Below are positions 30,186-57,673 of a stretch of DNA of 64,000 bases, in pieces. The notes beneath the pieces were generated by a model that was given only the letters and a program-made list of their open reading frames with translations, made no database searches and was not told the origin of the DNA. The stretch's first letter is position 1; the number at the start of each line of letters is the position of its first letter. Source of the stretch: Phytoactinopolyspora halophila (GTDB lineage Bacteria > Actinomycetota > Actinomycetes > Jiangellales > Jiangellaceae); assembly GCF_003287285.1 (NCBI RefSeq), contig NZ_QMIG01000015.1, forward strand, positions 62,001 through 126,000, in the 5' to 3' direction. The translations under genes and the position numbers were made by a program.

Positions 30186-30234
30186 TGATCATGAACACTA
30201 ATCGACCTATGAGGTCGACTAGTGTTCATGATCA
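30186..30234. terminator. bidirectional hairpin between convergent operons (TGATCATGAAC family)
   Basis: Arms TGATCATGAACACTA (30186-30200) and its exact complement (30220-30234) enclose a second 7-bp stem, TCGACCT/AGGTCGA, with a 3-base loop. The right arm contains the cimA stop codon. The outer arm shares 11 identical bases with the hairpin at 3403-3457. Confidence 0.75.
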
Positions 30235-31854
30235 TGAGGTGAGGCGGTCGAGGTCCTGGTGCAGCAGGCCGTAGTTCACGCCGTCGACGAGCGCGGCCCA
30301 CGACGCCTCGATGACGTTGGCCCCCACCCCGACGGTCTCCCACGAACTCGCGCCGTCGGTCATCTCGACCAGGACGCGGGTCACCGCGTCGGTGCCGTGC
30401 GCGGCGTCCAGGATGCGCACCTTGAAGTCGATCAGCTCGATCTTGTCGATCTCCGGGTAGAGCGTGCCGATGGCAGTGCGCAGGGCGTGATCCAGCGCGT
30501 TGACCGGGCCGTTGCCCTCACCGGTGACCACGGCGCGTTCCCCACCCGCGCGCAGCTTCACCGTCGCCTCGCTCACGGCCTCGCTGTCCGGGCGCGATTC
30601 GGTGATGACCCGCCACGACTCGACGTCGAAGAACCGGGTGCGCTCCTCTCCAGCTTCCTCGCGCAGGAGAAGCTCGAACGACGCGTCAGCCGCCTCGAAC
30701 GTGTACCCGGCCGCCTCGAGTTCCTTCACCCGGCGGGTGACCCGGGTGACCAGATCGTGGTCGTTGGACAGGTCGAAGCCGAGCTCGCGTCCCTTCAGCT
30801 CGACGCTGGCCCGGCCGGCCATGTCCGAGACGAGCATCCGCATGTCGTTGCCGACCTCGGATGGATCGGTGTGCTGGTACAGGTCCGGATCGACCTTGAT
30901 GGCACTGGCGTGCAAGCCGGCCTTGTGCGCGAAGGCGCTGCTGCCGACGTAGGGCTGGCGGGAATACGGCACCAGGTTGCTGAGCTCGGCGATGGCGTGC
31001 GCGATCCGGGACGCTTCCGGCAATGCACCAGCGGGCAGCACCTGCTGCGAACGCTTCAGCTCGATGTTGGCGACCACCGTGATCAGATCGGCGTTGCCGG
31101 TACGCTCGCCGGTCCCGTTGATGGTGCCCTGCACGTGGCTGGCTCCGGCGTCGATGGCGGCCAGCGAGTTCGCCACCGCGCAGCCGGTGTCGTTGTGCGC
31201 GTGCATACCCAGCCGGGCACCGGTGGCGTCGGACACCTCGGACACGACGGAACGGACGTCGTCGGGAAGCATGCCGCCGTTGGTATCGCACAGGACGACG
31301 ACCTCGGCCCCGGCGTCGACGGCCGCATGGACCACGTCCAGCGAGTAATCCGGGTGGCTGCGATAGCCGTCGAAGAAGTGCTCGGCGTCGAGGAACACCC
31401 GCCGTCCCTCACCGACAAGGAAGGAGACCGTGTCCCGGATCATCTCGAGGTTCTCGGACAGCGTCGTCTTCAGCGCGCGCTCGACGTGCCCGACGTGGCT
31501 CTTGGCCACCAATGTCACGACCGGAGTGTGCGCGTTGAGCAGGGCGCGCACCAGCTCGTCGTCAGCGGCCGCGGCGTGGGCCTTGCGCGTCGATCCGAAG
31601 GCCACGAGCGTGGCCGTCGACAGATCCAGCTCGGTGCGGGCCCGCTGGAAGAACTCGGTGTCCCTGGGGACGGCGCCCGGCCACCCGCCTTCGATGAACC
31701 CGACGCCGAGCTCGTCGAGGAGCCGCGAAATCGCCAGCTTGTCCTGGACCGACATGGACAGTCCTTCTTGCTGGGCGCCATCGCGCAATGTGGTGTCGTA
31801 GACGTGGAACCGTTCGACGTCCACCGTGCTCGCCCGTTGACCTTCGCTGCTCAC
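30232..31854 (-). CDS. cimA: (R)-citramalate synthase
   Basis: 540 aa, of the 2-isopropylmalate synthase/homocitrate synthase family. It condenses pyruvate and acetyl-CoA to citramalate, the threonine-independent route to 2-oxobutanoate and isoleucine. The TIM-barrel catalytic part shows YDTTLRDGAQQEG, AEHFFDGY, VLCDTNGG and the metal-binding HAHNDTG; the C-terminal about 130 residues form the regulatory LeuA dimer domain. The GTG start follows GAGGAG by eight bases. The 3' end lies inside a shared terminator hairpin. Upstream are an intrinsic terminator and a short Ile-rich open frame, suggesting attenuation control. Confidence 0.92.
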   Translation of the reverse strand: MSSEGQRASTVDVERFHVYDTTLRDGAQQEGLSMSVQDKLAISRLLDELGVGFIEGGWPGAVPRDTEFFQRARTELDLSTATLVAFGSTRKAHAAAADDELVRALLNAHTPVVTLVAKSHVGHVERALKTTLSENLEMIRDTVSFLVGEGRRVFLDAEHFFDGYRSHPDYSLDVVHAAVDAGAEVVVLCDTNGGMLPDDVRSVVSEVSDATGARLGMHAHNDTGCAVANSLAAIDAGASHVQGTINGTGERTGNADLITVVANIELKRSQQVLPAGALPEASRIAHAIAELSNLVPYSRQPYVGSSAFAHKAGLHASAIKVDPDLYQHTDPSEVGNDMRMLVSDMAGRASVELKGRELGFDLSNDHDLVTRVTRRVKELEAAGYTFEAADASFELLLREEAGEERTRFFDVESWRVITESRPDSEAVSEATVKLRAGGERAVVTGEGNGPVNALDHALRTAIGTLYPEIDKIELIDFKVRILDAAHGTDAVTRVLVEMTDGASSWETVGVGANVIEASWAALVDGVNYGLLHQDLDRLTS

Positions 31855-31920
31855 TTCCTGGCTCCTCGATTGTTGTCGGAATTCACCGTAGCGACGCCGC
31901 GCCGTCACCGCCGCCCGGAA

Positions 31921-31954
31921 CGCAAAAAACCCTTCGCACGAATGCGAAGGGTTT
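31921..31954 (-). terminator. intrinsic terminator upstream of cimA (attenuator)
   Basis: On the minus strand a 12-bp stem (31927-31938 with 31943-31954) closes on a TTCG tetraloop and runs into six T residues (31924-31929, partly in the stem). It lies between the leader open frame and the cimA start, about 70 bases before the start, so readthrough must be regulated or partial for cimA to be expressed from further upstream. Confidence 0.85.
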
Positions 31955-31986
31955 GCGCGCCGGCCGTGGTGCTGGTGCCGGCGCGC
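31955..31986 (-). other. leader hairpin between leader peptide and attenuator
   Basis: A perfect 10-bp GC stem GCGCGCCGGC/GCCGGCGCGC with a 12-base loop begins directly after the leader-peptide stop codon and abuts the terminator stem. A ribosome stalled on the last codons would cover its 5' arm. I could not identify a convincing antiterminator pairing by eye. Confidence 0.65.
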
Positions 31987-32013
31987 CTAAATAATGATCA
32001 TCCAATGGGTCAT
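31987..32013 (-). CDS. candidate cimA leader peptide MTHWMIII
   Basis: An 8-codon open frame (MTHWMIII, stop TAG) ends with three consecutive isoleucine codons ATC ATT ATT immediately before the leader hairpin and terminator of cimA. Isoleucine is the end product of the citramalate route, and ATT is a rare codon in this GC-rich DNA. This is the classical layout of ribosome-stalling attenuation. No Shine-Dalgarno is seen, so a leaderless start would be needed. A caution: the Ile codons include ATGATCATT, a motif also found at the tips of several hairpins in this window, so coincidence is possible. Confidence 0.6.
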   Translation of the reverse strand: MTHWMIII

Positions 32014-32154
32014 CGTTCTGAAGCATGCCACAGATACCGTCACGCGCGCCAGCACATGTAGCCACATGACGAGACGCGGACAGACACGGAGTGGACACAC
32101 CGCTGGCTCGACGCCAGGCTCATAGCATCAGAACACCCCAGAGATGAGGTCTGC

Positions 32155-33111
32155 ATGCAGCTTGACGGTCTGCTTTCCTTCCCGCTGACGCCCTTCACCT
32201 CCGATGACGAGATCGCCCTCGACGTTTTCGCGGAGCACCTCGAACGGCAGATCGCCGCCGGACCGGCAGCGCTGTTCGTCGCGTGCGGCACCGGCGAGTT
32301 CACCGCACTGGGCCAGGACGAATACCAGAAGCTCGTGAGCACGGCGGTGCGGGTCGCCGATGGCCGGCTTCCCGTCGTCGCCGGCGCCGGGGGTGGTCCG
32401 CGAGTGGCGAGAAGTTTCGCCCGTCATGCCGCCGACGCCGGTGCCGACGGCATACTCCTGCTTCCGCCGTATCTGGTCGCGTGCCCGCCTTCCGGGCTCG
32501 TCACTCACGTCCGGTACGTCACGCACAGCATCTCGCTGCCCGTCGTCGTGTATCAGCGGGCCAATGCGGTGCTCGATACGGACGCGGCACGTGCCCTTCT
32601 CGACGTTCCGGGCGTCGTCGGTGTCAAGGACGGCGTCGGCGACGTCGAAGCGATGCGACGCGTGACCGTCGCGGTCACGGCGAGCGGGCACCCGGCGGCA
32701 TCCGGGTTCTCGTTCCTCAACGGCCTCCCCACGGCCGAGCTCTCCGTTCAGGCTTACCGCGCGATCGGGGTGACCGGCTACTCGTCCGCCGTGCTGTGTT
32801 TCGCACCGGACATCGCGACGGCGTTCTTCGCCGCCGTGCGAGACGGTGATCAGGCCCTGGTGGACACGCTGCTGGCGGAGTTCTACCTGCCCCTTGCCCA
32901 GCTCCGGGACACGGTTCCCGGGTACGCGGTGTCGTTGGTCAAGGCGGGGGCGCGGCTCACCGGGCTCCCTGTGGGACCAGTCCGGCCACCGCTCGTCGAC
33001 GCGACCACGGAACACCTCGACCGGTTAACCCAGATCATCGAGCACGGCCGGGCGGCACTCGCCCGCGCGACGGCGGCCAGGACCGCGGAGACGCCGGTGA
33101 CCGCGCCATGA
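32155..33111 (+). CDS. kdgD: 5-dehydro-4-deoxyglucarate dehydratase
   Basis: 318 aa, dihydrodipicolinate synthase family TIM barrel. It dehydrates and decarboxylates 5-dehydro-4-deoxy-D-glucarate to 2,5-dioxopentanoate. The N-terminus LLSFPLTPFTSDDEIAL, the ACGTGEFTALGQDEY stretch and the Schiff-base lysine in VVGVKDGVGD fit the KdgD subgroup rather than DapA. It overlaps gudD by four bases. The next enzyme (oxoglutarate semialdehyde dehydrogenase) is not in the window. Confidence 0.9.
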   Translation: MQLDGLLSFPLTPFTSDDEIALDVFAEHLERQIAAGPAALFVACGTGEFTALGQDEYQKLVSTAVRVADGRLPVVAGAGGGPRVARSFARHAADAGADGILLLPPYLVACPPSGLVTHVRYVTHSISLPVVVYQRANAVLDTDAARALLDVPGVVGVKDGVGDVEAMRRVTVAVTASGHPAASGFSFLNGLPTAELSVQAYRAIGVTGYSSAVLCFAPDIATAFFAAVRDGDQALVDTLLAEFYLPLAQLRDTVPGYAVSLVKAGARLTGLPVGPVRPPLVDATTEHLDRLTQIIEHGRAALARATAARTAETPVTAP

Positions 33112-42830: not shown

Positions 42831-42916
42831 AATGATCATGTTTGGTACGTTTTCTCGGGCGATAACACGTCTACAGGCGTGTTATCGCCCGAGAAAACGT
42901 ACCAAACATGATCATT
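42831..42916. repeat. 39-bp perfect inverted repeat between convergent genes (AATGATCATGTTTGG family, copy 1)
   Basis: Arms 42831-42869 and 42878-42916 are exactly complementary over 39 bp with an 8-base loop. The outer end contains AATGATCATG, and the right arm includes the stop codon of the SDR gene. About 55 of the first 66 bases match the element at 57598. It can terminate both strands but is far longer than a normal terminator, so it is treated as a dispersed repeat. Confidence 0.85.
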
Positions 42917-56817: not shown

Positions 56818-57602
56818 CCAAGCCCACGACCGACCTGACGGTCCGCCGCTTCACCCCGAGCCAGGCGCCGTCCGGCCCTCCGGTACTGCTGCTGCACGGC
56901 TTCGCGTCGTCCGGCAAGCGGGATTGGCTCGACGGCACCGCGTCATCGCCTGGACAGGCGGGGTCCGACGGCGGCCAGCCCGGATGGGTGGATGCCCTGA
57001 CGGCCGCCGGTCGCGTCGTCGTCGTTCCCGATCTGCCCGGACATGGCACCAGCCCGGCCCCGCGCACCCTGCAGGAGGCAACCACCAGCGGCATGGTGCG
57101 AGCCCTGAGCCGGGTGATCGAGGCGGAGGGCGCACCAGTGGTGGATGTCGTTGCCTACTCGCTCGGGGCGCGGCTGGCGTGGGAACTGCCCCGGTCGGCT
57201 CCCGCCCGGGTGGCGCACCTGGTGCTCGGCGGGATCAGCCCCGGTGAACCGTTCGCCACGGTGAACGTGGAGGAGGCGCTCGCGTTCGCCACTGACGGCA
57301 CGCCGCCTGGCGACCCGCTGACCGGGATGATCGCGCAGATGATCGCCGCGCCCGGGCAGGACGCGAGGGCGCTGGCGACGTGTATCGAAGGGTTGCGCTC
57401 CGAGCCGTTCACGCCGGGCGCGGGCGACGTGGACGTCCCGGTGCTCTTCGTGGCCGGCGCGGACGACCCGGTCAGCGATGGGATCGAGAAGCTCGTGGAG
57501 CTGGTGCCGGGCAGCGTGCTGCGCCGGGTGACCGGCGGCCACATGGCCGCCCTGCACGGCGACGAGTTCCGCTCCACCACCCTCACCTTCTTGTCAGAAT
57601 GA
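56814..57602 (+). CDS. alpha/beta hydrolase (MhpC/DmpD-like fold)
   Basis: 262 aa. LLLHGFASSGK forms the oxyanion region, AYSLGARLAW the nucleophile elbow (GxSxG variant YSLG, Ser), and VPVLFVAGADDPVS and GGHMAAL carry the Asp and His. Last gene of the dipeptide-type importer operon, so it probably acts on the imported compound, for instance as an esterase or C-C hydrolase. Its TGA stop lies in the dispersed repeat that follows. Confidence 0.85.
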   Translation: MTKPTTDLTVRRFTPSQAPSGPPVLLLHGFASSGKRDWLDGTASSPGQAGSDGGQPGWVDALTAAGRVVVVPDLPGHGTSPAPRTLQEATTSGMVRALSRVIEAEGAPVVDVVAYSLGARLAWELPRSAPARVAHLVLGGISPGEPFATVNVEEALAFATDGTPPGDPLTGMIAQMIAAPGQDARALATCIEGLRSEPFTPGAGDVDVPVLFVAGADDPVSDGIEKLVELVPGSVLRRVTGGHMAALHGDEFRSTTLTFLSE

Positions 57603-57673
57603 TCATGTTTGGTACGTTTCCTCTGGCCGTGACACGGCTGTAGACGTGTTACGGCCCGAGAAAGCCTGGTACG
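57598..57673. repeat. dispersed intergenic repeat, AATGATCATGTTTGG family, copy 2 (decayed right arm)
   Basis: The first 22 bases are identical to the element at 42831, and about 55 of 66 match overall. The central stem (57621-57636 with 57645-57660, 8-base loop) is kept, but the outer right arm no longer pairs. The TGA stop of the hydrolase gene is part of the element. The remaining bases to 57759 show no gene. Confidence 0.75.

Follow-up and report, generated by a model that had tools for sequence, protein, structure and literature searches.

A conserved leader with isoleucine codons and two abutting hairpins in front of cimA in Actinomycetes, a likely isoleucine-specific attenuator of citramalate synthase

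The trp, ilv and thr attenuators of enteric bacteria use a 2:3 antiterminator and leaders that are led by a Shine-Dalgarno sequence. For actinobacteria, Seliverstov et al. 2005 (PMC1262725) described leaders for trp, cys, ilvB, leuA, leuS and ileS, found nothing for other pathways and did not name cimA, and cimA is also absent from the leader set of S. lividans (PMC8079986). In ilvB1 of M. tuberculosis, a ribosome at the stop codon was proposed to mask the antiterminator and a ribosome stalled at LVVI to leave it free, and the change of LVVI to AAAA abolishes induction (PMC13236596). Codon substitutions in the ilvB leader of S. coelicolor were without effect, as reported in PMC1262725, and this counts against the attenuator reading. 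A text search of the literature, with many subscription papers outside its scope, found no description of a cimA leader of the kind treated here; the preliminary description of this DNA had likewise known of none.

The window, which is the whole analysed stretch of 64,000 nucleotides from Phytoactinopolyspora halophila, carries this leader on its minus strand (Table 1). The preliminary description had claimed an 8-codon frame ending in Ile codons, a 10-bp GC hairpin (P1) directly after its stop codon, and a 12-bp terminator hairpin (P2) with TTCG loop and six Ts, about 70 bases ahead of cimA. The frame was present exactly, both hairpins were perfectly paired, and P2 ran into the T run. The distance from the terminator U run to the GTG of cimA (31854) was 69 nt, and the identity of the gene was upheld by TIGR00977. 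The 3' end of P1 and the 5' end of P2 are neighbouring bases, with 0 nt between them. No promoter-like site was found in the window sequence between terminator and cimA, which is a weak negative.

Table 1. Coordinates of the cimA leader and its gene in the window
Feature	Position	Strand	Remarks
Extended -10 promoter element TGG-CATGCT	32022..32030	-	Ends 8 nt before leader start codon; putative promoter, by sequence
Leader ORF ATGACCCATTGGATGATCATTATTTAG, ATG ACC CAT TGG ATG ATC ATT ATT TAG (MTHWMIII)	31987..32013	-	Class-wide conservation
Control codons ATC ATT ATT (Ile-Ile-Ile)	31990..31998	-	At -12, -9, -6 from first P1 base pair
Hairpin P1: GCGCGCCGGC, 12-nt loop, GCCGGCGCGC	31955..31986	-	10 perfect pairs; covariation
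Hairpin P2, intrinsic terminator AAACCCTTCGCA-TTCG-TGCGAAGGGTTT	31927..31954	-	12 perfect pairs; covariation
Run of six U	31924..31929	-	First three U also close P2
Putative Shine-Dalgarno GAGGAG of cimA	31862..31867	-	7 nt before GTG
cimA, citramalate synthase	30232..31854	-	TIGR00977, 629 bits (cut-off 450), E 3.6e-189; GTG start assigned by Shine-Dalgarno

The motif ATGATCATTATTTAG occurred once in the 5.04-Mb genome, and a covariance model (R1) built from 18 leaders of relatives found two places in the whole genome, at cimA (89 bits, E 2e-23) and at ilvB (24.6 bits, E 0.002). A window scan gave eight terminator-like places, five of them with an abutting hairpin, and only the cimA leader consisted of two clean hairpins beside the U run. 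Twin hairpins arising by chance were rejected as an explanation, the other window candidates being long irregular folds. Copies of ATGATCATT had been noted in unrelated hairpins as well. These extra copies belong to a separate long inverted repeat (42831-42916) and a decayed half copy at 57598, and a common origin with the cimA leader is ruled out. The inverted repeat is near-perfect, each arm measuring about 39 nt (AATGATCATGTTTGGTACGTTTTCTCGGGCGATAACACG), its decayed single copy (57598-57665) lies 15 kb away, and the two resemble members of a small family of mobile or palindromic repeats. Rfam gave no relevant family above gathering score in the window, the own ilvB locus and six sibling loci, and NCBIfam gave no identity for the cimA leader. 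A riboswitch was rejected too, as the weak SAM-IV match sits elsewhere, at 32242-32340, and its 24 bits fall short of the gathering score of 38.

Upstream regions of cimA were collected from related genomes, as the preliminary description had proposed, and the Ile-rich short ORF and the terminator were kept; the refuting condition set there, relatives lacking such an ORF at this place, thus did not hold. Eighty named cimA loci were fetched by protein alone, and 77 of them had a full-length leader match upstream; being chosen without the leader, this set gives the fairest rate, though it leans towards relatives of the query and a few of its genomes are also represented among the model sequences. 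Thermobifida fusca, Streptomyces, Nonomuraea, Kribbella, Nocardioides, Cellulomonas and Knoellia are included. Among the three loci lacking the element, two (L150, L178) have no leader, and in the third (L169) an aminotransferase-like reading frame comes immediately before cimA. With R1, 270 of 395 genomes of the class matched at E up to 0.01, some of these matches being ilvB. From other families, 60 of the better listed matches were followed, and 58 lay directly upstream of cimA; the remaining two lay before ilvB (L071) and before a threonine dehydratase-like gene (L093), the latter called by reading its translation. This second element (L093, 243-335) was seen in one genome, and its leader ends with ..MGIT. 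The weakest model matches, before isocitrate lyase-like (L228) and glutamine synthetase-like (L229) genes, are probably due to chance, and L222 and L223 may be chance or true matches. Sequence comparison thus shows that the leader and its neighbouring Ile codons, P1 and the abutting P2 are conserved as a unit before cimA. Because it was also found before genes fetched without using the leader, it is not due to chance. In loci of three relatives (L005, L010, L020), REP-like repeated palindromes TCACCTGATCGT..ACGATCAGGTGA stand in several tandem copies just upstream of the cimA promoter.

All but two of 158 cimA leaders encode 7-19 residues, and their start codons are GTG (81) or ATG (77). At least two Ile codons are found at -16 to -4 from the first P1 pair in 148 of the 158, these 148 having two or three in that zone. 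The stop codon lies at -4 to -2, as in the window, or at +10 to +23, inside P1, except for one odd ORF call at +51. Since the Ile codons are fixed though the stop varies from -4 to +23, what is constrained is the place at which the ribosome would stall. Codon choice is also peculiar: AUU makes up 199 of 345 control codons (58%) against 86 of 2458 Ile codons of the cimA genes (3.5%). When the stop is late, the peptide runs on into GRRAG or a similar tail, an in-frame translation of the 5' arm of P1, and some Streptomyces (L183, L191, L206) read this tail in another frame, with SAPVRS compared with IIGSRRAGPQ. So it is the RNA and the Ile codons that are kept and not the peptide tail.

Fewer than two Ile codons near P1 were found in 10 of the 158 leaders. 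Several of these end with ITT or LIT, and one (L117) is a wrong ORF call. In L024 and L100-L103, mostly of family f9, the Ile pair is replaced by one Ile and then Thr (MASTCITT, MTSCITT, MSTACCITT, MSYRLITH, MTQHCITP); threonine feeds the other isoleucine route.

The leaders begin in a way that points to leaderless translation. An extended -10 element (TGn before a CAnnnT-like sequence) was seen, with the TG in 147 of 158 leaders, and it mostly ends 6-10 nt before the start codon. This spacing leaves no room for a Shine-Dalgarno sequence and is what leaderless mRNA has. The preliminary description had counted the missing Shine-Dalgarno as a weak point; the absence stands, but it fits a leaderless start. 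So the MTHWMIII leader is probably translated from a leaderless mRNA. Several leader peptides of S. lividans, including ilvL, were also reported as leaderless (PMC8079986).

P1 and P2 account for the conserved part of the cimA leader. In alignment A4 (80 rows) 95.8% of cells pair and 15 of 21 pairs changed on both sides, counts which lean towards the model's structure, to which A4 was fitted. None of 500 shuffles reached this covariation and sliding the partners destroyed the signal; alignment A2 gave a similar but less extreme result. The P1 foot (GCG..CGC) is invariant in full-length rows, beyond what pairing requires. Of 157 leaders, 122 had P1 and P2 with 0 nt between them, 33 had a spacer of 1 nt and 2 had one of 2 nt.

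Clustered codons for the end product (148 of 158 leaders) and a terminator between leader ORF and gene are what an attenuator has. Together with the 77 of 80 loci and the gene-fitting codons of the sibling leaders described below, they support the earlier reading as an isoleucine attenuator, and on this sequence evidence we consider control through the Ile codons very likely. As a whole, the best explanation is that the cimA leader acts as an isoleucine-specific, ribosome-mediated transcription attenuator, which we hold to be likely. Citramalate synthase would then very probably be made only when isoleucine is short.

Counted from the first base of the A-site codon, the leading edge of a ribosome lies about 12 nt ahead. 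A ribosome decoding the first or second Ile codon would then reach to P1 or 3 nt into it. In this footprint arithmetic on the window RNA, P1 paired with a probability of 1.00 for the A site on Ile6 and 0.96 for Ile7, and it was unpaired once the A site held Ile8 or the stop codon. The starved ribosome would therefore keep P1 and the replete one lose it. Stalling at the third Ile would disagree with this, because P1 is already blocked when the A site is on Ile8.

We propose the following course. Transcription may start at the leader start codon or no more than about 2 nt away, and 70S ribosomes would load on the leaderless 5' end. When Ile-tRNA is plentiful, the ribosome would reach the stop codon, at the P1 foot or inside P1, and its leading edge would cover the 5' arm of P1, which then could not form. 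P2 would fold, and RNA polymerase would halt before cimA. Under a shortage of charged Ile-tRNA, the ribosome might wait on the first or second Ile codon with its edge just at the P1 foot. P1 would stay folded as the on-state structure and the polymerase would read through. That P1 is formed in the starved state seems fairly probable to us. The hairpins share no bases, so P1 would act by its position; in the most speculative step, P1 at the 5' foot of P2 might obstruct the closure of P2 at the RNA exit channel. In nearly all leaders sampled, P2 forms at equilibrium with or without P1, so this link from P1 to P2 is hypothetical, and we put obstruction by the abutting hairpin slightly short of an even chance. 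The direction of this regulation agrees with that of the M. tuberculosis ilvB1 mutant (PMC13236596). New in cimA is that P1, which the replete state would lose, lies next to the terminator without overlapping it.

P1 might instead aid termination, by stacking on P2 or by pausing the polymerase for the ribosome, and a stalled ribosome would disrupt P1 and so weaken termination. The exact abutment would allow coaxial stacking, the P1 foot is invariant, and pause hairpins belong to classical attenuators. However, the footprint runs the wrong way round for such a role, a ribosome on the first Ile codons sparing P1 and one at the stop covering it, and P2 alone, at a median of -17.5 kcal/mol, needs no help. 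We regard this possibility as unlikely.

In the trp and ilv leaders of E. coli, a base-paired antiterminator is the proposed mechanism. In a corresponding switch in cimA, stalling would free the 3' arm or the loop of P1 to pair with part of P2, in the style of the Corynebacterium ilvB-II motif, for which pairing between the P1 loop and the right shoulder of P2 was proposed (PMC10272879). This was checked by a swap test, with partners exchanged among 61 distinct cimA leaders. As positive controls, arm against arm gave z -11.4 for P1 and -11.9 for P2. P1 or upstream segments against P2 arms or tail showed no clear own-partner pairing in the 61 leaders (z -1.2 to +4.0, or -0.9 to +4.0 against P2 arms only, the value for P1 loop against tail being unreliable), and the 3' arm of P1 was less complementary to the left arm of P2 than swapped pairs were. 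Outward extension of P1 into P2 was impossible in 142 of 157 leaders. By equilibrium folding, P2 of the window leader was fully formed with P1 free or masked, and with P1 masked it stayed formed in all sampled leaders but L126 (0.45). The preliminary description had seen no obvious antiterminator and had suggested folding alternative structures; that absence is now measured by swap test and outward extension, and the alternative folding was run. No classical antiterminator sharing bases with the terminator was thus seen in the cimA leaders, and the two tests reject it there. A classical base-pair switch cannot then be what links the stalled ribosome to readthrough, and we find such a switch quite improbable. 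An ilvB leader (L231) leans the other way, as its P1 could be extended by GGGUU/AACCC into the left arm of the terminator, a true overlap; no such extension was seen by eye in two other ilvB leaders (L232, L233).

If P2 were a plain terminator with a fixed leak, the ORF would be incidental and cimA would have its own downstream promoter. But the position, number and choice of Ile codons are conserved in an otherwise unconserved peptide, the element goes with cimA and its sibling genes for branched-chain amino acids, and the region lacks a promoter-like site, which makes this explanation very unlikely. Short leader ORFs can act as arrest-peptide sensors, in which the nascent peptide stalls the ribosome on a ligand rather than through tRNA charging, but for cimA this is hardly credible, as many leaders with 7-9 residues are too short to fill the exit tunnel, and beyond Ile-Ile the sequence is free, up to the shifted frame of the three Streptomyces tails.

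Returning to the isoleucine attenuator, leaders of the same plan stand before other branched-chain amino acid genes. The own ilvB leader encodes MRFGILVPH, with the stop at the foot of GCGCGTAGGC..GCCGACGCGC and the terminator within 2 nt. Three other ilvB loci have LVVI or LVVL as control codons, and in other classes the ilvB leader has ...LVLIT. Twin hairpins, matched by the covariance model, were also seen before leuA (L211, 1393-1477; leader MSQNLLLT) and before leuS (L218, 1263-1362; leader MRTGLLLTEPR), which means that the twin-hairpin design is not limited to isoleucine. The control codons follow the gene (Leu for leuA and leuS; Leu, Val and Ile for ilvB), so tRNA charging would be sensed rather than the peptide. 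Outside the class, MSFSQVVIIR with twin hairpins was seen before an isopropylmalate/isocitrate dehydrogenase-like gene (L222, 252-338). It is possible, though we would not count on it, that an abutting hairpin, toggled by a ribosome that masks its 5' arm at the stop codon and acting as antiterminator by obstruction without mutually exclusive base pairing, is the general design of actinobacterial branched-chain leaders (cimA, ilvB, leuA, leuS). If true, it would explain why an antiterminator is never obvious in them.

The cimA leader places citramalate synthase, the entry of the threonine-independent isoleucine route, among the codon-controlled genes, with a putative sensor that reads isoleucine only. 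Its gap-free twin hairpins lack a base-paired switch, so the old puzzle of branched-chain attenuation without an antiterminator becomes testable. The leader, of about 90 nt, is small enough for direct single-round transcription tests.

Compared with known systems, the cimA leader shares with the enteric trp, ilv and thr attenuators that the ribosome position on control codons would decide termination, but it has neither their 2:3 antiterminator nor their Shine-Dalgarno-led leader. The LEU element of leuA (PMC1262725) likewise comes with an actinobacterial leader peptide whose control codons match the pathway; there a pseudoknot sequesters the Shine-Dalgarno of leuA and no terminator is described, whereas cimA has a clear one. 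The ilvB-II motif of Corynebacterium (PMC10272879) has stem-loops P1 and P2, a uORF with branched-chain codons and a P2 terminator like cimA, and a P1-loop/P2-shoulder antiterminator was proposed for it. Its P1 and P2 are about 8 nt apart by our reading of the published oligos; in contrast, the cimA hairpins abut and no cross-pairing was found. Also close are the actinobacterial ilvB leaders (ilvL of Streptomyces, MRTRILVLGKRVG; the LVVI uORF of Mycobacterium ilvB1), in which, as in cimA, a short leader has branched-chain codons right before a GCGCG hairpin and a terminator comes immediately after that hairpin. In most ilvB leaders examined P1 abuts P2 as well, and the tails of ilvL (GKRVG) and of some cimA leaders (GRRAG) both arise by translation of the 5' arm of P1. 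With its branched-chain codons before a GCGCG hairpin that abuts the terminator, the cimA leader belongs to these ilvB-type twin-hairpin leaders. It differs from ilvB in having Ile only, 2-3 codons, mostly AUU, and often a shorter leader. This probable attenuator of cimA, class-wide and isoleucine-specific, is known in its general logic, new as to the gene and a variant as to the architecture.
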